Virus record (IMG/VR): IMGVR_UViG_3300042311_001403
Coordinates: 1 to 33,751 of that record
DNA: 33,751 bases
Source of the DNA: a virus
Reading direction: 5' to 3' (one strand)
In this document: piece by piece, positions 1,037 to 33,125 of the stretch
How the letters are laid out: every line of letters starts with the position of its first letter
How positions within the stretch are numbered: the first letter of the stretch is position 1
Notes under the pieces: generated by a model
The model's database searches: none
The model's input: only the letters and a program-made list of their open reading frames with translations
Told to the model about the DNA's origin: nothing
Position numbers and translations under genes: made by a program

Positions 1037-1350
1037 GATTTTAATCTCCATAAACAATAATCAGTATTTGATATTTCACTATAAACTACATAAAATATTA
1101 AATCATCTATAACAATTTCTAAAATTTCTGGTTTAAAATTATTATTTTTTAGATGAATGACTAATTCATCTAAAAACCATACATTACCAATTAAAGTATC
1201 ATTAAGTAAATGTTGTTTATATTCATCAAAATTAAATAATAAAATATTATTTGGAAGAATTTGCATGTCTAAAAAATAAATATCAGGTTTATTTAATTCT
1301 ATTATTTTTGGATTATTAAAAATTTTCTCAATTGTTTCACTGTCCATCAT
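1033..1350 (-). CDS. Small protein ending in the shared TD-x-x-LW C-terminal motif, 105 aa
   Basis: The product is unrecognised. The start at 1350 is preceded by GGAG at 5 bases. The body is acidic and rich in Asn, Ile and Leu; the last segment is a probable beta strand followed by NTDYCLWRLKS. That ending matches the endings of about fourteen other small proteins in the window (see findings). It overlaps the upstream gene by 14 bases and the downstream gene by ATGA, so it is part of the RNA-ligase operon. The shared tail argues for a common partner or fate, but nothing in the sequence says which. Confidence 0.75.
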   Translation of the reverse strand: MMDSETIEKIFNNPKIIELNKPDIYFLDMQILPNNILLFNFDEYKQHLLNDTLIGNVWFLDELVIHLKNNNFKPEILEIVIDDLIFYVVYSEISNTDYCLWRLKS

Positions 1351-1672
1351 GTAAACTCCATAAAATTTCTTGTGTATTATCCAATTGACAATAAATTATA
1401 ACATAATTATTAACATGATTAAAATGAAAATGTTTATATTCAATTCCGAATAAATTTATTTTATTATAATCTTTAATAAAAATTAAATTATAAGGAAAAG
1501 AACCAAATTCTCGGATAAAATTAAAATATTCATCTAATTTATATAAATTTAAACATATATCTTTAGTATCAATATTTTTTAAATCTAAAAAACGAAGATT
1601 TTCTAATTGTAAAATTTTTCTAAAATCTTCGTTTTCTAATAACCACTCAATTGTTTTTTCAATATCACTCAT
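1337..1672 (-). CDS. Small protein with a variant of the shared C-terminal motif, 111 aa
   Basis: Start chosen at the ATG at 1672 (MSDIEKT), which overlaps the RNA-ligase stop by 8 bases; the longer frame reaching 1726 would lie inside the ligase gene. The protein ends in NTQEILWSLHDGQ, a diverged form of the TD-x-(V/I)-L-W-x-L tail. Its N-terminal part is probably helical (WLLENEDFRKILQ) and its C-terminal half is rich in aromatic beta-like stretches. No enzymatic motif is visible. It is the second gene of the operon after the RNA ligase. Confidence 0.72.
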   Translation of the reverse strand: MSDIEKTIEWLLENEDFRKILQLENLRFLDLKNIDTKDICLNLYKLDEYFNFIREFGSFPYNLIFIKDYNKINLFGIEYKHFHFNHVNNYVIIYCQLDNTQEILWSLHDGQ

Positions 1673-2858
1673 CAATAGTTGTATTCCTTGACCAAACAAT
1701 TTTAAAAATTTCCCGAACTTGCTCAATATTATTTTTATTGTTTAATTTCTTTTTAATCGTCTTAACAACAAAATCTTGGAAATTAAACAATTGATTTTCA
1801 AAATAACCAAAATAAGCAGCTTGAGTTAAACGATTTTCTTTTGAAACTTGTTCAGCAAAATAACGACGAGAATTGTCAATTTTTTTGCAATTTTCGTAAA
1901 GTTCTTTTACTGAAATCTCAAGATTTTTTGAATAATCATCGACATTTTTCCAAAATTTCTTTTGAAAATCAATTAGAATTTTTTGATCATTTTCGTCAAG
2001 TAAAGCAATTGAATCATCTACTTGATCAGCAACGATTAATTCTAAAACTCGCTTTTCTGAACTTAAAGCATCGATTGCGCGATGTCGAACAAGATACCAA
2101 TCTAGCTTGATTTTTACTTTTTGATCGTTATCCAGAAACCAAATAACGTAACCTTCAAAATTATCTTTTGCTTGGGTTACTAATTCATGAATATTTTTTC
2201 CATTGTACACATTTACAATAGGAATATTATATTCTTTTGCCCACATTTCTTGAATATTACGCGCAATATAATCGCCAGTAATATTATCACGAATAGCAGT
2301 CATAATTAGATTATCTTCTGGATAATCTACTACAACTTTATTTTCACGACTGACAAATTCAAAAAGAACAGTGCGATTTAATTTAATTTGATCCAATACA
2401 AAACTCGCATAGTTCGGTTTATCTTGAACAAAATTATCAACAATTTTAGCAATATCGGTATCGCCCATTTTAGTTGACCAAATAATTTTGTTATCAACCA
2501 ACATAGGCGCAATCATACTACCATCTAACTTATCCATGATAAGATGATTACGAGAAAAATCTAACCGATGCGTTTCAGGCATTTGATCCATATTAAAAAA
2601 CTTTTCAAATTTACGTGCAATCAAATTACCATTAAGATCAAAGGTTAAACCGCGACATTCACGCAAAATTGCACGACGACGATTTTCTAAAACATCTTTT
2701 GTATTAATCCTTGGGAACAAATCGGGAGTTTGAAACGCATAATTGAAAACAATATATCCTTCTTTTACAACACGCAAAAACGCAGTAACACCCAATTGAT
2801 TATTAAAATCATTGGTTACTTGAGTTACTTCATCAAGGGTAAGATTATCGGGAAACAT
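1665..2858 (-). CDS. rnlA: T4 Rnl1-type RNA ligase
   Basis: ATP-dependent RNA ligase of the T4 RNA ligase 1 (gp63) family, which joins 3'-OH and 5'-phosphate RNA ends and in T4 repairs tRNA cut by host anticodon nuclease. Motif I is KLDGS with the expected adenylated lysine at residue 110; an RECRG segment lies upstream (67-71); FEGYVIW matches motif IV, and KIKLDWYLVRH matches motif V, closely resembling the T4 KIKSDWY segment. At 397 residues it is slightly longer than T4 Rnl1 (374). The start has a strong ribosome site (AAGGAG). It leads a five-gene operon ending in a metallophosphoesterase; a polynucleotide kinase, its usual partner, is encoded near 15.5 kb. Confidence 0.9.
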   Translation of the reverse strand: MFPDNLTLDEVTQVTNDFNNQLGVTAFLRVVKEGYIVFNYAFQTPDLFPRINTKDVLENRRRAILRECRGLTFDLNGNLIARKFEKFFNMDQMPETHRLDFSRNHLIMDKLDGSMIAPMLVDNKIIWSTKMGDTDIAKIVDNFVQDKPNYASFVLDQIKLNRTVLFEFVSRENKVVVDYPEDNLIMTAIRDNITGDYIARNIQEMWAKEYNIPIVNVYNGKNIHELVTQAKDNFEGYVIWFLDNDQKVKIKLDWYLVRHRAIDALSSEKRVLELIVADQVDDSIALLDENDQKILIDFQKKFWKNVDDYSKNLEISVKELYENCKKIDNSRRYFAEQVSKENRLTQAAYFGYFENQLFNFQDFVVKTIKKKLNNKNNIEQVREIFKIVWSRNTTIDE

Positions 2859-3204: not shown

Positions 3205-3540
3205 TTAATTTTGCAAAAACCACAAAACTCGTTCGGTTTCACTTAAACCAATTGCATCGAAATAAATATCTGGATTTGGATGATTTTTTAACCAAGCATT
3301 GATATCTTTTCCATAATATTTTCCATCTAACCAAAAATTATAATCACCATTTATATAAACAACGGCGGGACCAATTAATCTATACAAACGCCAACCTTTT
3401 TTACACCAAACTTTTGTTCCAATTTCTAAACTTTCATAAGCTGGCGTATTTTCATCAGGTGAAGAAACATCATACTTAGGAACTTCATCGTAATCATCGG
3501 TTGTAAATTTTTCACCATCAACATAATAAATATAAGCCAA
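3205..3540 (-). CDS. YYVDGEKF / HRLTGPA-type paralogue A (LW-tail class), 111 aa
   Basis: Member of the window's repeated small-protein family: N-terminal IYYVDGEKFTT, a PDENTPAYE segment, a Trp/Cys patch (KVWCKKGW), an IGPA variant of the HRLTGPA core, a WLDGKYYG hairpin-like segment and a WLKNHPNPDIYFDAIG module. It ends in SETERVLWFLQN, the shared C-terminal tail. The core resembles phage MORN-like repeats, whose function is unclear. The start is TTG, adjacent to the IF-3 stop; it is chosen because the resulting N-terminus aligns with the ATG-started paralogues. It is the last gene of the IF-3/ClpX operon. Confidence 0.78.
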   Translation of the reverse strand: MAYIYYVDGEKFTTDDYDEVPKYDVSSPDENTPAYESLEIGTKVWCKKGWRLYRLIGPAVVYINGDYNFWLDGKYYGKDINAWLKNHPNPDIYFDAIGLSETERVLWFLQN

Positions 3541-4059
3541 TTATTGTTTGATGCCTTTTAATACAACAATAATTTGTTTTCCTGAATCTTGTAATTGTTG
3601 TTCAACTGTATAAAGATTATTGGGAATCAAATCGATAAATTCTTGCATTGTATCGAAGCCAACTGCTTTATTACTTTGTTCACGCCCTTTAAAACGCATG
3701 ACAATTTTAACTAAATCTCCAACTGATAGAAATTCTTTTGTGCGATTGGCTTTGACATTTAAATCACCAGTATCAGTTACAGGACGCAATTGAATTTCTT
3801 TTAATTGAATTTCTTTTGCGCGTTGTGCTGATCGTTGTGCTTTAAAAGTTTTTTCTTTTTCATAAAAATACTTTCCAGCATCAAGCATTTTTGTTACTGG
3901 AATTTCGTTTGGTCCAATTGAAATTTGAACTAAATCTAAATTTTTTTCATAAGCCATTTGGATTGCAGCATTACGATTAAATTCACCAAGTTTAGTTCCA
4001 TTTTCGTCAATTAAAAGCACACGATAGGAACGAATATCTTCATTAATAATTTTACTCAA
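3541..4059 (-). CDS. infC: Translation initiation factor IF-3
   Basis: Full-length IF-3 (172 aa; bacterial proteins are about 180). The N-domain starts INEDIRSYRVLLIDENGTKLGEF and continues through LDLVQIS and KMLDAGKYFYEKEK; the C-domain has KEIQLRPVTDTGDLNVK, the FLSVGDLVKIVMRFKGRE segment that contacts the 30S subunit, and a final IIVVLKGIKQ strand. IF-3 binds the 30S subunit, blocks 70S formation and proofreads the start codon. A phage copy could bias initiation towards phage messages, several of which here start with TTG or lack a clear ribosome site; that link is inference. It lies one base downstream of clpX in the same operon. Confidence 0.92.
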   Translation of the reverse strand: MSKIINEDIRSYRVLLIDENGTKLGEFNRNAAIQMAYEKNLDLVQISIGPNEIPVTKMLDAGKYFYEKEKTFKAQRSAQRAKEIQLKEIQLRPVTDTGDLNVKANRTKEFLSVGDLVKIVMRFKGREQSNKAVGFDTMQEFIDLIPNNLYTVEQQLQDSGKQIIVVLKGIKQ

Positions 4060-4060
4060 G

Positions 4061-5305
4061 TTATCTCCGTTTTAAAATAGGTTTAAAGTTTGTAATTGTT
4101 TCTTCGTTGACTATAACAGTTTTAAAGCCTTTGTCAACAATGTTTTGTAAATCATATAAAATAGGTTCTAAAATTTTTTCCATAATTCTACGTAAACTTC
4201 TAGCCCCTGTGTTTGTTTTAATTGCTTCTTTTGCAATTAAAGTTAATGCATTATCAGTAAATTTTAATTTTAAATCGTGAATTTCAAAGATAGCTTTATA
4301 TTGATCAACTAAACAATTTTTTGGTTTAGTTAAAATATTTTTTAATTCACTTTCATTTAATGCTTTTAATTCAGCAATAACCGGAATTCTTCCGACTAAT
4401 TCTGGTATTAATCCAAAAGTATATAAATCTTCAATTTGAATTTTATCGGTTGTTATTTCTTCTTTAGTTTGGTTAAAACCAATATTACCTTTATTAATTC
4501 TACGTTCAATAATTTTCTTTAACCCAACAAATGCACCACCAAATACAAATAATATATTATCAGTATGTACAACCGCTTGTGGTCCTTGAGGCATTTTTCC
4601 TTTACCCATGTGAACGTTTACAGCAGTTCCTTCAATTAATTTCAATAATGATTGTTGAACACCTTCACCACCAATATCTTTTGAAACAATATTATCAGAT
4701 GATTTTTTTGCTTTTTTATCAATTTCATCAATATAAACAATACCTAAAGATGCTAATCCAGCATCACCACCTGCTTCTTGATAAAGTTTATTAATGATAC
4801 TTTCTACATCTTCACCTACATAACCAGCTTCGGTAAATGAAGTAGCATCAACATGAACAAAAGGCAAATCCAACATACGAGATAATGTTTTTAACAAATA
4901 AGTTTTTCCTGAACCACTTGGGCCTAATAATAATACATTTGATTTCTCAATTTCTGTTTCTTGGCCCATCATTAAAGATCGAATTCTATTGTGATGATTG
5001 AATAAAGCAACTGATAAGGTTTTTTTAGCTTCTTCTTGTCCACAAACATATTCATCTAAAAATTCTTTAATTTCATTTGGATAAGGAAAATCATCTTCTT
5101 CTAATTCATCGATTTCATCGGTTTGTTCACTAATTTCTTGCTTATTTTCGTGTTTGGTTTCTTTTGATGCTTGAATTGCTTGATTGGCCGTTGTTACACA
5201 TGTTTCGCATATATATACTGGACTTTCAGATGATTCGTTACAAACAAATATTTCTTTATTATCATTTTGTATTTTACCACATAAAAAACATTGAATTGTT
5301 GACAT
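4061..5305 (-). CDS. clpX: ATP-dependent unfoldase ClpX
   Basis: Complete ClpX (414 aa). It has a C4 zinc-binding domain (Cys6, Cys9, Cys33, Cys36), then an acidic linker, and an AAA+ core with Walker A GPSGSGKT (128-135), the substrate-gripping pore loop GYVG (161-164), Walker B IVYIDE (189-194), the arginine-finger segment PELVGRIP (about 301-308) and sensor II GARSLRR (367-373). An IGF tripeptide is retained at 275-277, the loop by which ClpX docks on ClpP, so it can probably work with host ClpP. No clpP is in the window. Role in the phage is inferred: selective unfolding or degradation, perhaps with altered substrate choice. The start overlaps the upstream stop as TAATG. Confidence 0.95.
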   Translation of the reverse strand: MSTIQCFLCGKIQNDNKEIFVCNESSESPVYICETCVTTANQAIQASKETKHENKQEISEQTDEIDELEEDDFPYPNEIKEFLDEYVCGQEEAKKTLSVALFNHHNRIRSLMMGQETEIEKSNVLLLGPSGSGKTYLLKTLSRMLDLPFVHVDATSFTEAGYVGEDVESIINKLYQEAGGDAGLASLGIVYIDEIDKKAKKSSDNIVSKDIGGEGVQQSLLKLIEGTAVNVHMGKGKMPQGPQAVVHTDNILFVFGGAFVGLKKIIERRINKGNIGFNQTKEEITTDKIQIEDLYTFGLIPELVGRIPVIAELKALNESELKNILTKPKNCLVDQYKAIFEIHDLKLKFTDNALTLIAKEAIKTNTGARSLRRIMEKILEPILYDLQNIVDKGFKTVIVNEETITNFKPILKRR

Positions 5306-6600
5306 TAAATTTTTCCTTTACTAATTCTATCACCACCGGGAGTTAATTGTATTTCTTTGGCAATGTTAACTATTTCTTCTACAACAGTTGGATTATTTTC
5401 TAATATCTGAATGATTTGTTCCTTTCTTAATGACGCATCCATTGATTGCAATTCTTGCAATAATGTTACTGAATTCATTCTATTAACTTGATCTTCTAAT
5501 TTTTCTATCTGTTCATCTTTATCTAAAATAATTTTATCTAAATCGTTAATATTATTTTTTAATGTATTGATTTCATTAGAATAATTTTCTATTTTTTCAT
5601 TTAAACTTTCTTTATCATTAAATTCTTGAGAAAAAACATCGACATTTTTATCATATTCTTTTATTTTATCTTGCAATTCACTAATTTCAATTGAACGATG
5701 ATTTAATAAATCAGAATATTTTATTTTTTCTTCTTTTATTTCATTTAAATTATCAGTTAATGTTTTAATTTCATTATTTTTATCTTCTAATGATAATTTT
5801 AAACTGTCGATTGTTTGTTCAAATTGATTAATTTCTTGTTTTGAAACTTTTTTCTTTTTATCTTCAAAATATTCTTCTAATTTAATACTGCCTGCTATCA
5901 CCATTGCTATTGCAAATGGATCAAAAGCAACAATTAATAATACAATTATTATTATAACTGCATATTCAGGTTCAACACCAAATAATTTAGAAACATATTT
6001 TACTGGTCCTAATTTAGCCTCAACATCAGCATTTTTTTGTTTAAATGGTAAAATTTCATCATTTATTTTATTAATTTTTTCATTATTCGCTTGAATTGAT
6101 TTTTCTAATTGTTCACGTTCGATTTTTTGTTTTGTTCTTGCCGCTTCACCTTGAGTTGCTTTATCATTTTTCAAAAAAGTTTCAATTGATTTATCAAGTA
6201 AAGCAATTTTATCATTTAATCTTTTATTGTCTTCTACTATATTATTTTTTTGTGTTTCTAATTGTGAAATTTGTAATTCAATACCAGCTTTTGGTGCTTC
6301 TTGCTCTAAATGCCCTCTTGACAAATAACCATAAACACCTAAAGCATTGATAATCATCAATAATCCAATACATAAACCAATAAAACTTTTCAACGGCCAT
6401 TTGAATTTAGGGTTTTTCCAATTGGCATGTAAAACCGCAGCCATTAATAATTTACCTGCTTCTAATACAACACCCATGATTGCTACTGGAATTGCAGCAG
6501 CGGCAAATAAAGCCATTAATCCATAAACACTAAAATAAGCTGCAACTCCACTGATAATTACGCTCATTAATATTATAAGTAATCCTATAAATAATTTCAT
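5305..6600 (-). CDS. Membrane protein with long coiled coils, 431 aa
   Basis: Three hydrophobic segments near the N-terminus (about 3-24, 27-48, 71-93) and a fourth at about 213-235 anchor the protein in the membrane. Between and after them lie Lys/Glu-rich heptad-like regions (about 104-190 and 250-400), strongly coiled-coil in character. The ATG at 6600 is preferred over the TTG at 6618; an AAGG lies 11-12 bases upstream of it. No enzymatic motif is seen. It sits directly upstream of clpX (TAATG overlap), so ClpX and this protein are probably co-produced; a membrane scaffold or inner-membrane host-takeover role is possible but unproven. Confidence 0.8.
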   Translation of the reverse strand: MKLFIGLLIILMSVIISGVAAYFSVYGLMALFAAAAIPVAIMGVVLEAGKLLMAAVLHANWKNPKFKWPLKSFIGLCIGLLMIINALGVYGYLSRGHLEQEAPKAGIELQISQLETQKNNIVEDNKRLNDKIALLDKSIETFLKNDKATQGEAARTKQKIEREQLEKSIQANNEKINKINDEILPFKQKNADVEAKLGPVKYVSKLFGVEPEYAVIIIIVLLIVAFDPFAIAMVIAGSIKLEEYFEDKKKKVSKQEINQFEQTIDSLKLSLEDKNNEIKTLTDNLNEIKEEKIKYSDLLNHRSIEISELQDKIKEYDKNVDVFSQEFNDKESLNEKIENYSNEINTLKNNINDLDKIILDKDEQIEKLEDQVNRMNSVTLLQELQSMDASLRKEQIIQILENNPTVVEEIVNIAKEIQLTPGGDRISKGKI

Positions 6601-6652
6601 TTGATTTGTTACCTTCAATTTTTCTTAATAATAACTAAAAGTTATGTTAAAA

Positions 6653-6914: not shown

Positions 6915-7223
6915 TTAAGAATATTTTAATAACATTTCAACTTGAAAGGTATTATCTTGATTTGGATGATCTTTCAACCAATCATGTATATTTTCATAAT
7001 ATTTTCCATTTAAATAAAATTGACAAGTTCCATCAACCATAATTCTAGCAGGTCCAGTTAATCGATGTAAAATTTGTCCTTTTTCACACCAAGCCTTACT
7101 TCCAGTATTAATATCTTCATAAGCGGGCGTATTTTCATTTGGTGATGAAATAACATCCCAAGGGATTAGTTTTCTAATATCAGTTAGAAACTTTTCACCA
7201 TCAATATAATAAATATATTTCAT
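6915..7223 (-). CDS. YYIDGEKF / HRLTGPA-type paralogue B (LLKYS-tail class), 102 aa
   Basis: Starts MKYIYYIDGEKF at the ATG at 7223; the longer frame to 7265 runs inside the upstream paralogue. Family modules in order: YYIDGEKF, PNENTPAYED, KAWCEKG, LHRLTGPAR, FYLNGKYYE, WLKDHPNQD. It ends FQVEMLLKYS rather than in the LW tail, so it belongs to the second C-terminal class, together with the copies at 18.86, 23.92 and 26.16 kb. Adjacent to paralogue C of the other class, suggesting tandem duplication followed by tail divergence or swapping. Confidence 0.8.
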   Translation of the reverse strand: MKYIYYIDGEKFLTDIRKLIPWDVISSPNENTPAYEDINTGSKAWCEKGQILHRLTGPARIMVDGTCQFYLNGKYYENIHDWLKDHPNQDNTFQVEMLLKYS

Positions 7224-7227
7224 TTTT

Positions 7228-7605
7228 TTATTTCTGTAAAAACCATAAAACTCTATCGGTTTCATTCATCCCAATTGCATCGAAGTATAAATCTGGATTT
7301 GGATGATCTTTTAACCAATCTTGAACATTGTCATATGTTTTACCATTTACATAAAATGTTTTAGTTCCATCTGATAAAATGGAAACAGGGCCTGTTAAGC
7401 GATGAAGAATATGTCCTTCTAAACACCAATGTTTATGACCAGTTTTTAAATCCTCAAAAGCAGGCGTGTTTTCATTAGGTGAAGAATGTTTAAACCAAGG
7501 AATTGTAGTGATTTTATTAGTTGTAAATTTTTCACCATCTACGTAATAAATATATCTTTTTTGTTTAATAAAAAATGATTTTATTTTTTGTATAAATTTA
7601 TTCAT
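7228..7605 (-). CDS. YYVDGEKF / HRLTGPA-type paralogue C (LW-tail class), 125 aa
   Basis: Has a lysine-rich N-terminal extension (MNKFIQKIKSFFIKQK) not present in other copies, possibly an amphipathic helix, followed by YIYYVDGEKFTT, PNENTPAFED, KHWCLEG, LHRLTGPV, FYVNGKTYD and WLKDHPNPDLYFDAIGM, ending NETDRVLWFLQK. It is the first gene of the operon running down to IF-3, clpX and paralogue A, behind a TTGACA-N17-TAAGAT promoter. The conserved Trp/Cys patch and the HRLTGPA core look structural rather than catalytic. Confidence 0.8.
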   Translation of the reverse strand: MNKFIQKIKSFFIKQKRYIYYVDGEKFTTNKITTIPWFKHSSPNENTPAFEDLKTGHKHWCLEGHILHRLTGPVSILSDGTKTFYVNGKTYDNVQDWLKDHPNPDLYFDAIGMNETDRVLWFLQK

Positions 7606-8353: not shown

Positions 8354-8382
8354 AATATAGAAAATTTTTTATAATTTGTCAA
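8354..8382 (-). promoter_or_regulatory. Promoter with conserved spacer
   Basis: Minus-strand TTGACA, 17 bases ending in AAAATTTTC, then TATATT, drives the gene at 7905-8327. It overlaps the 5' region of the divergent radical SAM gene, so transcription in one direction may interfere with the other. Confidence 0.75.
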
Positions 8383-8399
8383 GACATTTAAATAATAAC

Positions 8400-9350
8400 A
8401 TGTGGAATAATATTAAATCACTTCATGTTGAAACAAGTAGTTTTTGCAATGCTAGTTGTGTTCAATGTGGAAGAAATCAAAATGGCGGACCAATAAATGA
8501 TAAATTAATTCCAAGTAATTTATCATTTGATATTTTTAAAAAAACTATTAGTCAAATGCAGTTAGAAACAATTACTTTTTGTGGTAATTATGGCGATCCA
8601 ATTGCTAACCCTCATTTAATTGAACAAATAAAAATAACAAGAGAATTATTTCCCAATTGTTGGATTGGTATTCATACCAATGGGTCGATTAGAAATGAAA
8701 ATTGGTGGGAAGATTTGGCACAATCAATTGGAAATCGTGGCGCTGTTATTTTTGGAATTGATGGATTAAAAGATACCTTGCCAATTTACAGAAGAAATTG
8801 CGACTTTGATAAAGTAATAGAAAACGCAAAAACTGTTATAAAAAACAATTGCGAAGCAAGATGGGCGTTTATTGTTTTTAAACATAATCAACATCAAATT
8901 GAATCAGCAAGAAATTTATCCATTGACTTAGGATTTAAAAAATTCGTTGTTAAAAATACTCATAGATTTTCAGAAGATAAATTTCCTATTTTTGATAATG
9001 AAAAAAATACAATTGGCTATTTAGAATTACCAACAATTGAATTACCAAATAATTTTAAAGAACGAGAATTTAGTTGCCAAAGTTTAGAAAAACAAGAATT
9101 ATATCTTGACAGTTGGAATAGAATTTTTCCTTGTTGTTGGATGGGATTAAGTTTAGACAAAAGATTTTCTTTTTCCAATGAAGAATTACAAGAATTAAAT
9201 GTAGAAAATAATTCTATTGAACAAATTGTAAATGGAAATGTTTTTAAAAAAATTCAAGAACAATTTTCAATTAGCAAAATTTGCCAAAAATATTGTGGTA
9301 AAAGAGTTTTTGAACGTCAATTTATAGGTGATAATAATGCAACCAAATAG
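8400..9350 (+). CDS. Radical SAM protein with SPASM-like C-terminal cysteines
   Basis: The CNASCVQC motif (Cys16, Cys20, Cys23) fits the CxxxCxxC iron-sulphur site of radical SAM enzymes, followed by a glycine-rich GNYGDP segment and a GIHTNGS strand. The C-terminal part contains further cysteines (SCQSLE, FPCCWMG, ICQKYC) in a spacing reminiscent of SPASM domains that hold auxiliary clusters in peptide-modifying enzymes. The ATG at 8400 is preferred over a TTG at 8376; neither has a ribosome site. It overlaps the neck-protein gene by 14 bases, so the two are co-expressed. The substrate is unknown; modification of a virion or host peptide is inference. Confidence 0.82.
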   Translation: MWNNIKSLHVETSSFCNASCVQCGRNQNGGPINDKLIPSNLSFDIFKKTISQMQLETITFCGNYGDPIANPHLIEQIKITRELFPNCWIGIHTNGSIRNENWWEDLAQSIGNRGAVIFGIDGLKDTLPIYRRNCDFDKVIENAKTVIKNNCEARWAFIVFKHNQHQIESARNLSIDLGFKKFVVKNTHRFSEDKFPIFDNEKNTIGYLELPTIELPNNFKEREFSCQSLEKQELYLDSWNRIFPCCWMGLSLDKRFSFSNEELQELNVENNSIEQIVNGNVFKKIQEQFSISKICQKYCGKRVFERQFIGDNNATK

Positions 9351-10394: not shown

Positions 10395-10721
10395 TTAATT
10401 TTGCAAAAACCACAAAACTCTTTCAGTTTCATTTAAACCAATTGCATCAAAATAAAGATCGGGATTTGGGTGATCTTTCAACCAATTATGAACCTTTTCA
10501 TAATGTTTATCATTTAACCAAAATTCTTTTTTTCCAGCCGACCACATTCTTGCGGGTCCAGTCAATCGATGTCTTTTACCGTTTTGATACCAACACTTAT
10601 ACCCATATTCTAAATCTTCATAAGCAGGTGTATTTTCATCAGGTGAATAAATTTCTAACCAAGGAATTACACTATTATATTCAGTTATAAATTTCTTCCC
10701 ATCAATATAATAAACATACAT
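10395..10721 (-). CDS. YYIDGKKF / HRLTGPA-type paralogue D (LW-tail class), 108 aa
   Basis: Modules: VYYIDGKKFITEY, PDENTPAYED, KCWYQNGKRHRLTGPAR, EFWLNDKHYE, WLKDHPNPDLYFDAIG and the tail NETERVLWFLQN. The Cys of the Trp/Cys patch is retained but followed by Tyr-Gln-Asn-Gly, close to the MORN-like NG/HRLTGPA pattern seen in other phages. It is the last gene of the 13.7-10.4 kb operon; its ATG overlaps the YqeY stop as TAATG, so translation is coupled. Confidence 0.8.
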   Translation of the reverse strand: MYVYYIDGKKFITEYNSVIPWLEIYSPDENTPAYEDLEYGYKCWYQNGKRHRLTGPARMWSAGKKEFWLNDKHYEKVHNWLKDHPNPDLYFDAIGLNETERVLWFLQN

Positions 10722-18015: not shown

Positions 18016-18859
18016 AACTATCATTATAACAGGCTGTTCAGGATACATTGGATCACATGCCGCTTATTATTTTAAAAAACAAAATTATAAAATAATTGGT
18101 TGTGATTTAAATGAACCAAAAAATCATTTTGTTAAAAATTCTTTAGATGAATTTTTTCAAATGAGTTTTGACGATCACAGATTTATTGAAAAAACAAATA
18201 AAATAAAAAATTTATATAAAATTTTGCATTTTGCAGGCAATCCTTCAGTAAAAAATTCTATTTTAAATCCAAAAGAAACTTGGGACAATCATTATTATCA
18301 ATTGTTTAATTTTTTAAACAAATTTAAAAATAAAAAAATTGATTTTATTTTACCAAGTACATGTTATGTTTATGAAGAAAAATTATCACCATATGGCGAA
18401 ACAAAATTAGCAGCAGAAGACTTATTAAAAATATTTTATCAAAAAATAAATTATAAAATTTATCGTCTTTATAATATTGCTGGTTGTTATAATAACCTTG
18501 TTGATACAATGAATCAAAATCAATTGATCCCAACATTAATAAATGCAGATTTGAAAAATAAAGAATTTTTTATTCCTAAAAATAATTCTGGTGTAAAAAA
18601 TTTCGTTTATATTAATGATTTAATGAAACAATTTGAAATGGATAGTTATATTAGAAACACAACGTTTGATTTGGCTAATAATGAAAATATTTCTATTGAA
18701 GAATTAGTTGACCTTTATGAAAAAACATTTTCTGTTAAAATTAATAAAATATATTTGGATAAAGAAGAAACTAATTTTAAAACAAATAACATATATAAAC
18801 ATGGCCTTGGTGTAAAACAAATTTTAAGACTAACTAAAAAAATAATGGAGCAAAAATGA
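18008..18859 (+). CDS. NAD-dependent epimerase/dehydratase (extended SDR)
   Basis: Extended short-chain dehydrogenase fold, 283 aa: GCSGYIG dinucleotide-binding loop (Gly9, Gly12, Gly15), an FAGNPSV segment corresponding to the usual HxAA region, Ser117 in PSTCYVY, and the catalytic Tyr129/Lys133 pair in YGETK. Homologues such as UDP-glucose 4-epimerase act on nucleotide sugars. A phage enzyme could supply a sugar for DNA or virion glycosylation or alter host surface sugars; the substrate cannot be read from the sequence. It is translationally coupled to genes on both sides. Confidence 0.85.
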   Translation: MHKTIIITGCSGYIGSHAAYYFKKQNYKIIGCDLNEPKNHFVKNSLDEFFQMSFDDHRFIEKTNKIKNLYKILHFAGNPSVKNSILNPKETWDNHYYQLFNFLNKFKNKKIDFILPSTCYVYEEKLSPYGETKLAAEDLLKIFYQKINYKIYRLYNIAGCYNNLVDTMNQNQLIPTLINADLKNKEFFIPKNNSGVKNFVYINDLMKQFEMDSYIRNTTFDLANNENISIEELVDLYEKTFSVKINKIYLDKEETNFKTNNIYKHGLGVKQILRLTKKIMEQK

Positions 18860-19167
18860 CATTTATTTATTATATAGATGGTGAAAAATTTACAACCGAG
18901 GACAATTGGCATAAAATACCTAGGAATAATATTTCTTCACCAAATGAAAATGTCCCAGCAATTGAAGAGTTAAATTCTGAATATAAAATTTGGTATTTAA
19001 AAGGTCAAATTTGTCATCGATTAACCGGACCAGCATTAATTCGTCCAAAAGGCAATAAAGAATTTTGGCTAAATGGAGTATATTATAGAAACATTTATGA
19101 TTGGTTAATGGCACATCCAAATCAAGATAATGCTTTTCAGGTTGAAATGTTGCTAAAATACACATAA
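18856..19167 (+). CDS. YYIDGEKF / HRLTGPA-type paralogue E (LLKYT-tail class), 103 aa
   Basis: Modules: FIYYIDGEKFTTE, PNENVPAIEE, KIWYLKGQICHRLTGPA, EFWLNGVYYR, WLMAHPNQD and the end FQVEMLLKYT. The Cys of the WC patch is replaced by Tyr. It is followed within 10 bases by repeat copy 2, exactly as paralogue H is followed by copy 3, so gene and repeat may have been duplicated as one unit. Starts by ATGA overlap with the epimerase. Confidence 0.8.
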   Translation: MTFIYYIDGEKFTTEDNWHKIPRNNISSPNENVPAIEELNSEYKIWYLKGQICHRLTGPALIRPKGNKEFWLNGVYYRNIYDWLMAHPNQDNAFQVEMLLKYT

Positions 19168-22622: not shown

Positions 22623-22651
22623 AAAAGGGGGAGAATTGTTTCTCCCCCTTT
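22623..22651. terminator. Bidirectional terminator
   Basis: AAAGGGGGAGAA-ttg-TTTCTCCCCCTTT hairpin between the plus-strand gene region and the stop of paralogue F. The 90 bases before it (22532-22621) hold only a tiny frame behind GGAGG (see rejected items). Confidence 0.82.
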
Positions 22652-22982
22652 AATTTTTTAAAAACCAAAGAACTTTGTCGGTTTCAGTAAAAATACCAAT
22701 ATTGTGAAAGTACAAATCAGGATTTGGATGATCTGCAATCCATTCCTTTACGTTTTCATATCGTTTGTCATTTAACCAAAATTCTTCTCTTCCATCAGAC
22801 CAAATTTTTGCAGGACCAATTAAACGATCCCCAAATCCATTTTTTAAACACCACGCTTTAAATCCATCAGATAAATCTTCAAAAGCAGGGGTGTCTTCAT
22901 CGGGAGATGAAATTTTCCACCAAGGAATTTCATCTTTATTATTGGTTGTAAATTTTTCACCATCAATATAATAAACATACAT
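22650..22982 (-). CDS. YYIDGEKF / HRLTGPA-type paralogue F (LW-tail class), 110 aa
   Basis: Modules: VYYIDGEKFTTN, PDEDTPAFED, KAWCLKNGFGDRLIGPA (HRLTGPA diverged), EFWLNDKRYE, WIADHPNPDLYFHNIG and FTETDKVLWFLKN. It is the last gene of a minus-strand operon with the nucleotidyltransferase-like protein and the frameshifted paralogue G upstream. Two family members in one operon argue for local duplication. Confidence 0.8.
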   Translation of the reverse strand: MYVYYIDGEKFTTNNKDEIPWWKISSPDEDTPAFEDLSDGFKAWCLKNGFGDRLIGPAKIWSDGREEFWLNDKRYENVKEWIADHPNPDLYFHNIGIFTETDKVLWFLKN

Positions 22983-26156: not shown

Positions 26157-26465
26157 ATGAGTTATATTTATTATATTGATGGTGAAAAATTCACAACCGT
26201 AATTCCTTATATTATCCCTGTGTTTAAAATTTCCTCACCAAATGAAAATACACCCGCACTTGAAATCTTATCAACTGGATATAAAAGATGGTGTGAAAGA
26301 GGCAGAATATTACATAGACTAAATGGCCCATCAATTATTAATCCTGATGAAACGTATTGGTTTTATATAAAAAATGTTCAATATTATGGTATTCATGATT
26401 GGCTTTTAAATCATCCAAATCAAGACAGTGCCTTTCAAGTTGAAATGCTGTTAAAATACACATAA
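26157..26465 (+). CDS. YYIDGEKF / HRLTGPA-type paralogue H (LLKYT-tail class), 102 aa
   Basis: Modules: YIYYIDGEKFTT, PNENTPALEI, KRWCERGRILHRLNGPS, TYWFYIKNVQYYG, WLLNHPNQD, FQVEMLLKYT. Closest in ending and in downstream context to paralogue E: both are followed by the 80-bp repeat. No strong ribosome site (GGAT at 8 bases). It is the last phage gene before the transposon. Confidence 0.78.
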   Translation: MSYIYYIDGEKFTTVIPYIIPVFKISSPNENTPALEILSTGYKRWCERGRILHRLNGPSIINPDETYWFYIKNVQYYGIHDWLLNHPNQDSAFQVEMLLKYT

Positions 26466-27919: not shown

Positions 27920-28111
27920 TTAAGATTTTTTCTTTCTGCCGCTTTTGAGGGCGGGAAGCGATTCGCCATTGGGTTCATCGAAAAAATCCCGTGTGTCACA
28001 ACCGAGTGCATTTGCGAGTCGATCTAAGAGGGCAACGGTAGGGTTTTCCTGATTCCGTTCCAATCGATACACATAGAGCCGATCAATCGCAGCATCGACC
28101 GCTAAGGCTTC
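27920..28111 (-). pseudogene. Remnant of an XRE-family HTH regulator
   Basis: 63 codons from EALAVDAAIDRLYVYRLERN through NPTVALLDRLANALGC to a basic GRKKKS end match the second half of a helix-turn-helix domain of the XRE type. The first helix and recognition start are gone; in frame just upstream is a TGA. Upstream sequence still has a GAGGAGG site and ATG, and GGCTTCT/AGAAGCC arms mark the junction, suggesting an internal deletion. ACATAT-taac-ATATGT (about 28140) may be its old operator. Confidence 0.7.
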
Positions 28112-28198
28112 TCATAAGAAGCCCGAAACCTCCTCAAAACATATTAACATATGTCGTCTAACGGGATTGGCAGGTTTGAGGATAAAGGATTTGGGTAG

Positions 28199-28447
28199 CT
28201 ATTTTCGCCGACCTCTTGGTAATCCCTTTGGGATTTCAGAGAGTTCAGAGAATAATTCAATTATATTGACATTAAGAGTTTTAGTCAAAATATCGAGCGT
28301 TGTTATGGTTGCGCTGCGTTTTCCATTTTCGATCTGACTGAGAAAGCTAGAGGCTATACCTGCTTCTGCTGCAAGCGTTTCTTGGCTTATGCCTCGCTCC
28401 AGTCGCAAACGTTTAAGATTTGATCCAACCAGTTCCCGAATGTCCAT
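28199..28447 (-). CDS. XRE-family transcriptional regulator, 82 aa
   Basis: A complete HTH_3 domain: LKRLRLERGISQETLAAEAG, IASSFLSQIENGKRSATITT, LDILTKTLNVNIIELF. A basic tail GRRK ends it. Probably represses its own and the divergent small gene's promoter: the 111-bp gap holds the palindrome ACTATAGT and a near-palindrome GAGCCG/CGGTTC. In a mobile element such regulators usually limit transposition or cargo expression. Confidence 0.85.
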   Translation of the reverse strand: MDIRELVGSNLKRLRLERGISQETLAAEAGIASSFLSQIENGKRSATITTLDILTKTLNVNIIELFSELSEIPKGLPRGRRK

Positions 28448-28558
28448 ACGGGCACACTGAGGACTTTACAGCCCTCAAACCATTCACTATAGTAAAGATT
28501 AAAAGGTTGAGCCGTTAAGCGGTTCGATCTGCGGTTTGGTGTCAATCAGGAGTGAAAA

Positions 28559-28711
28559 ATGTCAACTAAGACGTATAAAGCGCGCGTAAGGCTTCCGAAC
28601 GGGGCATATGAAGATGTTACCGTCCAAGCGAGTAATCCCGGAAACGCAAGGTCCATGCTTGAGCAGCAATACGGCAAAGGTTCGATTGTTTCTGGACCTT
28701 TCCAAGCTTAA
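28559..28711 (+). CDS. Small protein, 50 aa (VRLPNG / QYGKGS type)
   Basis: Too short for usual gene calling but strongly supported by AGGAG at 6 bases and a perfect terminator right after the stop. Product MSTKTYKARVRLPNGAYEDV, then TVQASNPGNARSMLEQQYGK and a short end. A similar two-strand-helix small protein (VRLPNG, VQA, NAK, QYGKG) is common in Alphaproteobacteria as I recall, function unknown. Confidence 0.65.
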   Translation: MSTKTYKARVRLPNGAYEDVTVQASNPGNARSMLEQQYGKGSIVSGPFQA

Positions 28712-28715
28712 ATCC

Positions 28716-28755
28716 AAAAGGTTTAGGCGTTTCAGAAGCGCCTAAACCTTTTTTT
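28716..28755 (+). terminator. Rho-independent terminator
   Basis: AGGTTTAGGCG and CGCCTAAACCT arms with a 9-base loop, followed by a run of T. Confidence 0.92.
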
Positions 28756-28834
28756 CGTAAATCAATAGTTGGGTAAAAACAGAAATTCTTTTGAGTTTCT
28801 GTAACGCTATTTTTTTCAGAAGGAGATTACCGTT

Positions 28835-30622
28835 ATGCAAACCACTCGTTTCGAACAAAAAGCCTTCACATATATGGGAACAAAAAACATTACCTATAGC
28901 GAAGTTAATTTTAATTATATTGTCGATCAGTACAAAACTATGGGGGCAAATCACGCCTATCTTGGCAGCATCGTTGAATGGGAAGAAGATAAGAATAACT
29001 TTGACCCTTTGGCAGTAACATATTACCAAAATACGATTCCAGTGCGTGGCGGTTACACCATTGATGAATTGATGAGCAAAGCCGATTATCTCCATAATCA
29101 AGGGTTAGCTGTTACCATTCGTCAACAAGTAGTAGATTTCTATGTAGAAAATGGTCTGGATAAGTTTACAAATTTTAATTTACCAACCAACTCAAATGTT
29201 GGTGATAAAGCTGCATTCTTTCAACAATATACCGCGTATATGGTTGATTTAGCGAAAGCTTGCCAATCAAAGGGAGTTGAAGCCATTGCAATTGGGAATG
29301 AGATGCTTCATTTCACAACTGGCGACACAAAGGGATATTGGGAAAGCCTAATTTCACAAATCCGTTCAGTTTATTCAGGCAAATTAACCTATGCCGCATT
29401 TGTGGGCTTTCAGCCTAATTATGTTCCAGCCAATGAATTGGCGAATATCAAGTGGCTTGATAAACTTGATTACATCGGAGTAGATTTTTATCCGCAATTA
29501 ACACTCAGTAAGAACGCGAATTATGATGATTTTGTTCGCGCTTTATATGGTGATAACTCAAGAAAAGTAAATTGGGTTGATTACCTAAAAAATCTTGCTG
29601 AAACAACCGGTAAGAAAATTATGTTTACTGAAATTGGCGTTCAAAGTTATGACGGCTCTGGAACGATGCAAGAACCAAGTGATTATAACTTAGCCCCTTC
29701 GGACCAAAAAGAACAAGCTGATTGGTATAAGGCTGTTCTTTCGGTCATGAGTAGCGAATTAGGCGATAAATTTATGGGAACTGCCGTTTGGAATGGGAGA
29801 AATACCTCTACAGCCGAAAACAATGGGAATAATAATGATTGGACCGTCATCGATAAACAAGCAGAAAACGTTGTTCGCACTGCTTATACCGATGGTGAGC
29901 TAGACGGCCTCACAAAGACCATTGCAGGCACGTACAGCGGCTCCTTTAATAACGACACGATTACGGGTTCTTCAGGTGCCGATAGCGTTTCTGGTGGCCG
30001 TGGCAGCGATACAATCAATCTTGGGGCCGGAAACGACACGGTTGTTATCAACGCTACGTACAACGCTAATGTTCGTTTAAAAATCGATGGGTCAACCGTC
30101 ATCGTTAAATCCGAAGACGGAACCGACCGATTAACCAATGTCGAAACGGTCCAATTCAATAATTTGAAATTGGATGTATCAGTTTTCAATGGTTCGGCTG
30201 ATCCATTGAACATTTATCGGTTTTATAATACCCAAACAGGGACGCACTTCTATTCCAATAGCCAGACCGAACGAAACACCGTTCTGAATAATCTCGACCA
30301 GTTCCTTTATGAAGGCGTCGGCTTCAAGGCTTTAGCTGGTGGCGATGATCCCGTTTATCGCTTCTTCAATGCCAATACCGGAACCCACTTCTACACAATC
30401 GATGCCAAAGAACGCGATGCAGTGAATGCATTAGCCGGGTTCCAGTTTGAAGGGACGGCGTACATGGCAAGCGATACCAAGATTGAAGGTTCGCATGAGT
30501 TATTCCGTTTCTATAACACGAAAACGGGAACTCATTTTTATACCGATAGTGTTTCTGAACGCGATGCTGTGAAATTGATTGGTAACTTCCAGTATGAAGG
30601 AGTGGCGTATTATGTCGGTTAA
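28835..30622 (+). CDS. Secreted-type glycoside hydrolase with RTX and DUF5648 repeats, 595 aa
   Basis: Residues 10-350 form a GH-A-clan TIM barrel resembling GH113-type enzymes: the acid/base Glu156 in AIGNEM and the nucleophile Glu266 in FTEIGVQ are both present, with barrel strands such as YIGVDFYP and a late VWN segment. Residues 370-403 are RTX calcium-binding repeats (GSSGADSVSGGRGSDTINLG then AGNDT). Then three DUF5648-type units begin YRFYNTQTGTHFY (460), YRFFNANTGTHFY (508) and FRFYNTKTGTHFY (558). No N-terminal signal peptide; RTX proteins leave by type I secretion through a C-terminal signal, but here the RTX part is not terminal. Likely targets a polysaccharide outside the cell. 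AAGGAG ribosome site. Confidence 0.8.
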   Translation: MQTTRFEQKAFTYMGTKNITYSEVNFNYIVDQYKTMGANHAYLGSIVEWEEDKNNFDPLAVTYYQNTIPVRGGYTIDELMSKADYLHNQGLAVTIRQQVVDFYVENGLDKFTNFNLPTNSNVGDKAAFFQQYTAYMVDLAKACQSKGVEAIAIGNEMLHFTTGDTKGYWESLISQIRSVYSGKLTYAAFVGFQPNYVPANELANIKWLDKLDYIGVDFYPQLTLSKNANYDDFVRALYGDNSRKVNWVDYLKNLAETTGKKIMFTEIGVQSYDGSGTMQEPSDYNLAPSDQKEQADWYKAVLSVMSSELGDKFMGTAVWNGRNTSTAENNGNNNDWTVIDKQAENVVRTAYTDGELDGLTKTIAGTYSGSFNNDTITGSSGADSVSGGRGSDTINLGAGNDTVVINATYNANVRLKIDGSTVIVKSEDGTDRLTNVETVQFNNLKLDVSVFNGSADPLNIYRFYNTQTGTHFYSNSQTERNTVLNNLDQFLYEGVGFKALAGGDDPVYRFFNANTGTHFYTIDAKERDAVNALAGFQFEGTAYMASDTKIEGSHELFRFYNTKTGTHFYTDSVSERDAVKLIGNFQYEGVAYYVG

Positions 30623-30669
30623 TATTTAGAAAAACTCTTTCAACATCCTAATCACAGGAGTAATTTACT

Positions 30670-31278
30670 ATGAAATTCAGCTTGAAAAATGTGTTTTTGG
30701 TCATAGTCGCTATGATTATGATTTATCTTTATAAAGAATCGGACAAAGCCGAAAAGGTCAAGGTCGAGGAACAAAAAAAGGTACAGCAGGAAAAAGAAAC
30801 TCAGAGTAAAATTTTAGCCGAAAAAATTGAGCTTGAGAAAAAAGAAAAAGAGAAACAGGAGAAAGAGAAAAATCAACAGCAAAATAATGTCATAGACGAT
30901 AGTGCAGTTATGCGGGAATTGGAAAGAAGGAAAAATATATACGATAGCTATAGCAGAACAAAAATCGAAAACGTAAAAAGAGATTATTGTTCTGGAAATG
31001 GATGGAGCGTTATGGATGCATATTATACTACTCTAAGGAAAATGCTTGTGCCCTTACCAAGCAATAAGAAAATTTATGCCGACCCCACGACTAATGATGT
31101 TTCTGCGACTTTTTACGGAGACTGTACATATTCAATTGTATCCAATTTCGAGTATGAGGATAAAGGGGTAATGTATAAACAAAAATTTGGTGCCATTATA
31201 AGGTATTCTGGTAACATAGATGGATCAATGCCGCGAGATGATGAATGGATTATTGTTAAACAAGAATTTATAAAGTGA
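30670..31278 (+). CDS. Membrane-anchored hypothetical protein, 202 aa
   Basis: Residues 5-21 (LKNVFLVIVAMIMIYLY) make one membrane segment or uncleaved signal anchor, followed by a long Lys/Glu/Gln-rich coiled-coil stretch (to about 75) and a soluble C-terminal domain containing three cysteines (Cys106, Cys149 region), likely exported. AGGAG ribosome site, 47 bases after the hydrolase gene, so probably co-transcribed. Its periplasmic helper or inhibitor role towards the hydrolase is conjecture. Confidence 0.7.
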   Translation: MKFSLKNVFLVIVAMIMIYLYKESDKAEKVKVEEQKKVQQEKETQSKILAEKIELEKKEKEKQEKEKNQQQNNVIDDSAVMRELERRKNIYDSYSRTKIENVKRDYCSGNGWSVMDAYYTTLRKMLVPLPSNKKIYADPTTNDVSATFYGDCTYSIVSNFEYEDKGVMYKQKFGAIIRYSGNIDGSMPRDDEWIIVKQEFIK

Positions 31279-31287
31279 AAACAATTT

Positions 31288-31312
31288 TAAATAGGGGCTA
31301 TTAGCCCCTATT
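31288..31312. terminator. Bidirectional terminator
   Basis: AATAGGGGCTATTAGCCCCTATT is a perfect palindrome between convergent genes; the stop of the regulator gene lies in it. Confidence 0.82.
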
Positions 31313-31535
31313 CATTTTCCAATCTTAAAACACTAATTCCAATCACACTCATAACCGCAAACAAAAACCAAGCCGGGTAAGTGCCCCGAGAAATCTTCAT
31401 CCCTACCGATCCCTCAGTTTCCGAAATGCCTAACGCACTTAATCGGTGTGCCAAATCCTCATACGTCACGCCTTGCCGCTTCAATTCGGCCTTTAAAAAC
31501 CGCTTCGCTCGTTCTTCCCAAACTTCCTTACTCAT
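31308..31535 (-). CDS. DUF6471-like small regulator, 75 aa
   Basis: WEERAKRFLKAELKRQGVTY, EDLAHRLSALGISETEGSVG, MKISRGTYPAWFLFAVMSVI fit the DUF6471 pattern, common in Alphaproteobacteria and HTH-like in layout. It is divergent from the transposase across a 115-bp region with paired ATACGT sites, so it may control transposase expression. Confidence 0.68.
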   Translation of the reverse strand: MSKEVWEERAKRFLKAELKRQGVTYEDLAHRLSALGISETEGSVGMKISRGTYPAWFLFAVMSVIGISVLRLENE

Positions 31536-31575
31536 TCCCCAACTCCCCCAAACATAAAAGTTATAAAAACAACAT

Positions 31576-31623
31576 ATACGTTATCTTTTCTGTTGACAAG
31601 GCGATTTCAAAAACATAACGTAT
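31576..31623 (+). promoter_or_regulatory. Transposase promoter flanked by inverted operator-like sites
   Basis: TTGACA (31593-31598), 17 bases, TAACGT (31616-31621). ATACGTTAT (31576-31584) upstream and its exact complement ATAACGTAT (31615-31623) over the -10 box bracket the promoter; a third ATACGT lies near 31642. The arrangement suits looping or cooperative repression. Confidence 0.6.
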
Positions 31624-31650
31624 TCGTTAGTTAAACAATGGATACGTGAA

Positions 31651-32628
31651 ATGACACAACATTTTCTCCTTTCAAAAGATGCTCGCGGCCTTTCCCTGGC
31701 GAAAATTTTTCGCATGACTGCCGAGGAAAGCGCCGATGCCTTTCAAAAAATCCGTTGGGCCGATGGCACGCCTCATTGCCCCGATTGCGGCTCCTTGACG
31801 CTTTATTTCTGCCCCCGGAAATCAGGAACGCGCCGTTGGCGCTGCAAAGATTGCCGGAAAGAATTCACCCTTACTTCGGGCACCTTGTTCGCTTGGCATA
31901 AACTCCCTTTGAACATGTACCTTGCCGCTATTGCAATTTTCGTCAACGAAGTCAAAGGCAAATCGGCTTTGGCTTTGAGCCGCGATCTGGATGTTCAGTA
32001 TAAGACGGCCTTCGTCTTAACGCATAAATTGCGCGAAGCGATGGCGTCGGAAATCAATCAGAACGAAATCGGCGGTATCGATAAAACGGTTGAAATCGAT
32101 GGGGCTTACTTCGGCGGACACATGCGCCCTGAAAATCTCAAAACCGAACGCAAAGATCGGCGCTTGGCTGAAAACCAAACCGGCAAACGCAAATGCGTCG
32201 TTGTCATCCGCGAACGCAATGGCAAGACGAAAACCAAAACTTTCGCTTCTGAAGAACAAAGCCTAAATTTCATTAAACAAAATGTCGAAAAAGGAACCAC
32301 AATTCATGCCGATGAAGCACGGGCTTGGAATAATCTACATGCCAAATTCGACATGAAACGGATCAATCACAGCGAAGCTTACAGTTTTGAAGGTGCATGT
32401 ACGAATCAAGCTGAAAGTTTCTTTTCGCGGTTGCGTCGTGCTGAATTGGGGCATCATCATCACCTTTCGGGCGTTTACCTTGATCGGTACGCGCGCGAGA
32501 TGGCTTTTCGTGAAGATCATCGTTCTGACGGGAATGTGGCTCAATTCGACCGCGTTCTTCGGTTGGTTTGTGTTAATCGCCCCTCGGTTGATTTTTCCGG
32601 GTATTGGCAACGTAATCAGCAAAAATAA
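31651..32628 (+). CDS. tnp: IS1595/ISXO2-family transposase
   Basis: 325 aa, complete. N-terminal zinc ribbon CPDCGS...RWRCKDC (Cys43, Cys46, Cys65, Cys68), then the ISXO2-like DDE nuclease: Asp150 in VEIDGAYFGG, Asp221 in IHADEARAW and TNQAESFFSRLRR with Glu255. Such enzymes cut and paste or copy DNA bounded by inverted repeats. Codon use is G+C-richer than the phage. It is the only transposase inside the 28-bp repeats and so the likely driver of this element. Weak ribosome site, possibly limiting expression. Confidence 0.93.
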   Translation: MTQHFLLSKDARGLSLAKIFRMTAEESADAFQKIRWADGTPHCPDCGSLTLYFCPRKSGTRRWRCKDCRKEFTLTSGTLFAWHKLPLNMYLAAIAIFVNEVKGKSALALSRDLDVQYKTAFVLTHKLREAMASEINQNEIGGIDKTVEIDGAYFGGHMRPENLKTERKDRRLAENQTGKRKCVVVIRERNGKTKTKTFASEEQSLNFIKQNVEKGTTIHADEARAWNNLHAKFDMKRINHSEAYSFEGACTNQAESFFSRLRRAELGHHHHLSGVYLDRYAREMAFREDHRSDGNVAQFDRVLRLVCVNRPSVDFSGYWQRNQQK

Positions 32629-32701
32629 AAAGGGGAAAAACTGTTGCAAGCGCGCCTATTTGGTTGTACCAAATTTACCGGATCAATGCGAGTGAGGAAT
32701 T

Positions 32702-32911
32702 ATGTCAATATCATTTACGCTAGATACATTCAAGAATAATTACGTCACTATCATTCCAGCTTATAAATTAAATTCGGCAACAACTACCCCATATATAGTG
32801 GCTAGAATAATTCAAAATGACGGAAATAAGCTTCTTGGTGATTTGGAATTCAGTAATTACGATGATTATCTAGAGTTTGTAGAAAAAAATATTATTAATA
32901 CGACAAAATAA
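32702..32911 (+). CDS. Small cargo gene, 69 aa
   Basis: GAGGA ribosome site just before the ATG. Strand-rich N-terminal half (VTIIPAYKLNSATTTPYIVA) and an acidic DYLEFVEKN end. No family recognised. Overlaps the next minus-strand gene by 17 bases at the 3' ends. Confidence 0.5.
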   Translation: MSISFTLDTFKNNYVTIIPAYKLNSATTTPYIVARIIQNDGNKLLGDLEFSNYDDYLEFVEKNIINTTK

Positions 32912-33125
32912 TTGTTCTTAATTTTATTCCTAATAAATCGTAATCCTCTTTATTAAAATCATAATATTCTCTGCCGTTCACGATCTGGCGAGGATGATTT
33001 TCAAGCCATTCTGGCGTAATTAAGGTTTTAATATTTTCCAAAACACCATCTAAATTGGTTTTCAAATTTCTTATTTCCTCAGAAGTCATATACACTACTT
33101 CTGCATCTTTAAAAATATCTTCCAT
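32895..33125 (-). CDS. Small cargo gene, 76 aa
   Basis: GGAG at 7 bases before the ATG. MEDIFKDAEVVYMTSEEIRN is followed by a helix, then TPEWLENHPRQIVNGREYYD, which superficially recalls the W..HPN module of the phage paralogues but lacks their other modules. Unknown function. Confidence 0.55.
   Translation of the reverse strand: MEDIFKDAEVVYMTSEEIRNLKTNLDGVLENIKTLITPEWLENHPRQIVNGREYYDFNKEDYDLLGIKLRTIILSY

Follow-up and report, generated by a model that had tools for sequence, protein, structure and literature searches.

Overall, the 33,751-nucleotide stretch of viral DNA analysed here (the window) carries a clpX gene whose product probably (at about 0.72) docks ClpP, chiefly the phage's own, within a phage-borne Clp set of altered substrate choice. 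Judged by its sequence, the ORF encodes a bona fide phage ClpX of the AAA+ unfoldase type, and with its ATPase and pore-1 motifs and the IGF tripeptide all present this protein looks both active and ClpP-competent.

The clpX gene, its motifs and its neighbours

With respect to identity, the clpX ORF runs without interruption and exceeds both NCBIfam cut-offs for ClpX (465 bits against 359 for NF003745, and 426 bits against 371 for TIGR00382), and the encoded protein is 45–50% identical to solved ClpX. Its AlphaFold model (pLDDT 84.7) matches the fold of the ClpX chains in ClpXP cryo-EM structures. The gene and the features of its product, from the N terminus, are as follows.

4061..5305, minus strand: clpX, 414 aa, assigned from NCBIfam equivalog scores, identity to solved ClpX and the fold match
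5198..5290, minus strand: N-terminal zinc domain, with four Cys (6, 9, 33 and 36) aligned with those of the ClpX zinc domain, and a short insertion
5114..5155, minus strand: linker from the zinc domain to the AAA+ core, aa 51–64, acidic and disordered (AlphaFold pLDDT <50)
4901..4924, minus strand: Walker A, GPSGSGKT, aa 128–135, from motif alignment
4814..4825, minus strand: pore-1 loop, GYVG, aa 161–164 (GYVG in 83 of 85 phage ClpX)
4586..4606, minus strand: RKH loop site, aa 234–240, occupied by GKGKMPQ, motif lost (RK[HN] in 68 of the 85 other phage ClpX)
4475..4483, minus strand: IGF ClpP-docking tripeptide, aa 275–277 ([ILMV]GF in 83 of 85 phage ClpX)

Walker B (aa 189–196), the arginine finger (GR, aa 305–306) and sensor II (GARSLR) are also present, and the segment KGNIGFNQ aligns with I268–F270 of E. 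coli ClpX. These data bear out the initial annotation, which had described a complete ClpX with an IGF loop, a conserved zinc domain, pore loop and Walker motifs, and divergence in the zinc domain and linker. Specifically, the full-length ORF passes both family cut-offs, the four Cys, GYVG and both Walker motifs are intact, and the divergence takes the form of the zinc-domain insertion and of a linker that is longer as well as acidic.

Not noted in the initial annotation is that the RKH loop has been lost; in E. coli ClpX, ssrA-type tails are gated by this loop. The motif comparison behind the counts above covered 85 phage and 80 bacterial ClpX, with an E. coli reference row that was entered by hand and agrees with the PDB alignment. 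All 80 bacterial proteins have GYVG, RK[HN] and [ILMV]GF, percentages that describe a non-random sample because the bacterial loci were picked as nearest to phage ClpX. Loss of RKH is shared by 17 of the 85 other phage proteins, and the window ClpX reaches the NF003745 and TIGR00382 cut-offs without it. Beyond this loop, I and G stand in the pore-2 loop where the consensus has V202 and S203 (E. coli numbering), and the window protein departs from consensus at 8 of the 91 sites that are conserved in ≥95% of 165 ClpX (phage median, 1). Together with the altered zinc domain and linker, the loss of RKH suggests that the enzyme selects a narrower or different range of substrates and draws less on ssrA-tagged proteins of the host. 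Across phage ClpX, the docking loop is held more strictly than the ssrA-gating loop, which provides a concrete handle on phage Clp genes; these occur in many jumbo phages, and no substrate has been assigned to any of them in the literature found.

The genes that flank clpX lie on the same strand and, together with it, form an apparent operon.

5305..6618, minus strand: predicted membrane/coiled-coil protein, upstream of clpX, with weak coiled-coil matches only
3541..4059, minus strand: infC, encoding IF-3, 172 aa from a TTG start, immediately downstream of clpX (TIGR00168, 136 bits against a cut-off of 60)
3205..3540, minus strand: family A paralogue with the C terminus SETERVLWFLQN, at the downstream end of the apparent operon

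The stop codon of the membrane/coiled-coil gene overlaps the clpX start (TAATG), and the GGAG ribosome-binding site of infC sits inside the 3′ end of clpX. IF-3 discriminates against non-AUG starts, and the start codon of infC itself is TTG or GTG in each of the three phages inspected (window 4059, L244:4299 and L247:5299).

Clp genes across the phage genome

The phage genome was pieced together from metagenomic IMG/VR contigs. The whole window is collinear with positions 89769–123519 of a 146-kb contig (G001) at 99.99% identity, which rules out an assembly chimera. Contigs drawn from three metagenomes form a chain through overlapping ends (12–70 kb, 99.99–100% identity), and a further 108-kb contig that has no overlap with this chain has family A, the paralogous family described below, in common with it. 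The chain and the 108-kb contig amount to about 343 kb with 526 ORFs. Genes resembling those for T4 RNA ligase, gp32, UvsX, UvsW and the clamp loader (the last four recognized by eye) mark this as a T4-like jumbo phage.

Two further regions of this genome may be mentioned in passing. Several radical SAM-like proteins are encoded at G001:24000–32000 (by eye, from CxxPW-type N termini) and at 8376–9350 of the window (Pfam). At positions 28000–33000 of the window, the GC content rises from about 27% to 40–43%; this end contains an HTH gene, an IS1595 transposase and a GH113–RTX–DUF5648 protein (28835–30622), of which a second copy with 74% DNA identity lies at G001:135062–136876. The GC-rich end looks recently acquired, and a search of it for a clue to the host gave no plasmid match and only partial phage matches.

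Elsewhere in the same genome, we found a ClpP gene at G001:51090–51698 (PF00574, E 3e-54), the product of which has an aligned Ser/His/Asp triad and scores below the NCBIfam ClpP cut-offs. In what we take to be its docking pocket, with residues assigned from E. coli ClpP, F82 is replaced by Ala (found in 0 of 81 bacterial ClpP) and L48 by Phe. Given the scores below cut-off and these two unusual pocket residues, the strength of ClpX–ClpP docking is uncertain. A ClpA-like ATPase at G001:81251–83470 scores 720 bits, below the ClpA cut-off of 993, and has IGF at the position of the ClpA IGL loop. ClpS is encoded at G046:29488–29787, on a contig joined to the G001 chain by overlaps, and a gene that looks Hsp20-like by eye is located two genes upstream of it. 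As ClpP, ClpA-like and ClpS proteins are encoded by the same phage, the natural partner for its ClpX is the ClpP of the phage itself. The initial annotation had proposed that the phage protein may replace or compete with host ClpX on ClpP; its premise of ClpP competence agrees with the sequence, but the phage's own ClpP, ClpA-like ATPase and ClpS were overlooked, and with these taken into account the product is likely to be a Clp protease of the phage rather than chiefly a rival for host ClpP.

From the sequence, motifs, gene set and synteny observed here, we infer that ClpX hexamers most likely form and that their IGF loops would dock onto ClpP, chiefly that of the phage and possibly also that of the host, so that docked ClpX would feed selected proteins into it. 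The set of ClpX, ClpA-like ATPase, ClpP and ClpS, with the Hsp20-like gene near clpS, appears to be inherited within T4-like jumbo phages, and probably lets the phage govern proteolysis and protein quality control during takeover and assembly. A more specific version, which we put forward tentatively and with considerable doubt, is that the RKH-less ClpX, a co-evolved ClpP with an altered pocket (F82A, L48F), and the phage ClpA-like and ClpS proteins make up a self-contained, tag-blind Clp protease that would be orthogonal to the host system during infection.

It is also conceivable, if unlikely, that phage ClpX is mainly a ClpP-independent remodeller of replication or virion-assembly complexes that has retained IGF by descent only. 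Host ClpX disassembles MuA complexes without ClpP, and topoisomerase genes lie near clpX in Atu_ph07, Phosso and SCTP-2. A translocase or assembly role has moreover been proposed by Iyer et al. (PMC7824862). ClpP was seen in 19 of 42 ClpX-phage contigs, most of which are fragments, and in many such phages ClpX may use host ClpP or act by itself. The 23 contigs in which no ClpP was seen would suit a remodeller, but these too are mostly fragments, and the window phage does have its own ClpP. In addition, the IGF-like tripeptide is kept better than RK[HN] among phage ClpX, which suggests selection for ClpP docking. A considerably less probable alternative, related to the competition raised by the initial annotation, is that phage ClpX, as a decoy or competitor, ties up host ClpP and thereby shields phage proteins from host ClpXP. 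An intact IGF combined with a lost RKH is indeed what would be expected of a docking-competent, tag-blind ClpX; however, the intact Walker A and B motifs, arginine finger, sensor II and pore-1 loop would be needless in a pure decoy, and the phage brings ClpP, ClpS and a ClpA-like ATPase as well.

The C-terminal tail and family A

The initial annotation had also noted a common C-terminal tail on many phage proteins, and this observation is well founded: a strict TDxxLW-type end occurs on 33 of the 232 ORFs of the 146-kb contig, against 0.7 expected. Much of the signal stems from family A, a group of 87 paralogues of roughly 105 aa that are spread over the whole phage on both strands and make up about 17% of its ORFs. 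The tail is present on 43 of these 87 members, which account for 43 of the 79 regex matches, and about half of the family is without it; a second type ends in QDNAFQVEMLLKYT or similar. Outside family A, the tail end is found on about a dozen or more proteins, where it follows a strand-like stretch (by eye). The family A copies in the window lie at 3205–3540, 6915–7265, 7228–7605, 10395–10721, 18856–19167, 22650–22982 and 26157–26465, of which two represent the types discussed here.

18856..19167, plus strand: family A paralogue, second type, with QDNAFQVEMLLKYT in place of TDxxLW at its end
22650..22982, minus strand: family A paralogue bearing the TDxxLW tail, target of the structure prediction

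In the AlphaFold prediction of the latter protein (45 paralogues; pLDDT 94.7), the tail is an ordered helix spanning residues 100–109 with a pLDDT of about 94, and this modelled helix speaks against a flexible tag. Family A gave no sequence match in Pfam, PHROG or GenBank phages, and within IMG/VR it was found only in contigs of the window phage. By fold, no match was found in the PDB, and uncharacterised phage proteins and MORN-like proteins matched weakly. One tailed protein of the window (1337–1726) has a weak SMI1/KNR4 (SUKH-1) match, below cut-off, at E 0.0016.

Among loci around 78 other phage ClpX genes, a TDxxLW-type end occurs on 4 of 1845 ORFs against 2.0 expected, and on that basis a tag common to phages at large, or one tied to ClpX, is rejected. 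Elsewhere, a looser regex picked up only a few ends of the DAxxFKLxW type (10 of 1660, against 3.1 expected), and several small proteins of other jumbo phages (L014:13734–14900, L040, L042 and L010) have a tail-like architecture in which a strand-like stretch is followed by a (D/E)DAxxFKLxW end. The degradation or remodelling circuit of the initial annotation, in which the tail would be a degron or sorting tag read by phage ClpX, is therefore highly improbable: the excess of tailed ORFs in family A and the other tailed proteins would be in its favour, but the tail is not enriched in the other ClpX-phage loci, belongs mostly to one paralogous family, half of which does without it, and is modelled as an ordered helix. 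The loss of RKH fits altered tag recognition in general and gives no link between ClpX and this tail. The simplest reading is that the tail is a shared structural C terminus spread by duplication, and not a ClpX tag.

Comparison with known Clp systems

Relative to bacterial ClpX in ClpXP (6wrf, 6vfs and 8e91), the window protein shares the zinc domain, AAA+ core, GYVG, IGF and arginine finger, and differs in its lost RKH, its linker, its zinc-domain insertion and its pore-2 changes. Its gene is phage-encoded and adjoins infC, not clpP. In our tree, phage ClpX, including that of the window, fall on one side of a branch (SH-aLRT 99.9), with bacteria and phage G on the other, which rules out recent capture of clpX from a host; owing to a long branch, the exact place of the window protein among the phages is not fixed by the tree. 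Bacillus phage G likewise encodes both proteins (gp257, ClpP-like, and gp258, ClpX-like), but these genes are adjacent as in bacteria, and its ClpX lies inside the bacterial group, indicating a separate acquisition. Several GenBank records labelled as Listeria, Enterococcus or Staphylococcus phages (OR84xxxx) are short or odd entries with ClpX, ClpP and IF-3 matches; they may be bacterial contamination and should be left out of any tally of phage Clp genes.

With respect to gene order, each of the 40 other ClpX-phage contigs with a mapped ClpX (G003–G042) has a same-strand clpS downstream of clpX, within 3 kb in 37 of them, and this link is broken in the window phage. That clpS should follow clpX so consistently, though bacterial ClpS serves ClpA, offers a second concrete handle.

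Clp kits of this sort have been described before in giant phages, and ClpP, ClpS, ClpA and ClpX have been listed in jumbo phages by Iyer et al. (PMC7824862). The Pseudomonas jumbo phages PA5oct, MIJ3 and Paride resemble the window phage in combining ClpX, ClpP and ClpA in one phage, and MIJ3 has its ClpS and Hsp20 genes side by side; they differ in that ClpX identity is 40% and clpX is followed by rpsU, not infC. Paride, a phage of the PA5oct group that kills dormant P. aeruginosa, was described in a paper in which Clp is not mentioned (PMC10761892). As these three phages are cultured, their Clp genes are open to removal and testing.

The arrangement in the window is most closely paralleled in Atu_ph07, Phosso and AP-J-162. 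The Agrobacterium phage Atu_ph07 has seven Clp proteins, including ClpX (gp2), ClpA (gp292), ClpP (gp676) and, like the window phage, ClpS (gp708) (PMC6102473). Atu_ph07 and Phosso have the identical order of clpX followed by infC, together with ClpP and ClpA-like genes, and in AP-J-162, like Phosso a Sinorhizobium phage, clpX is reported to adjoin the IF-3 gene (PMC11242549). Nonetheless, ClpX and ClpP identity between this group and the window phage is only 40–45%, and it is the window phage that differs from the group in having clpX far from clpS and coupled to a membrane-protein gene.
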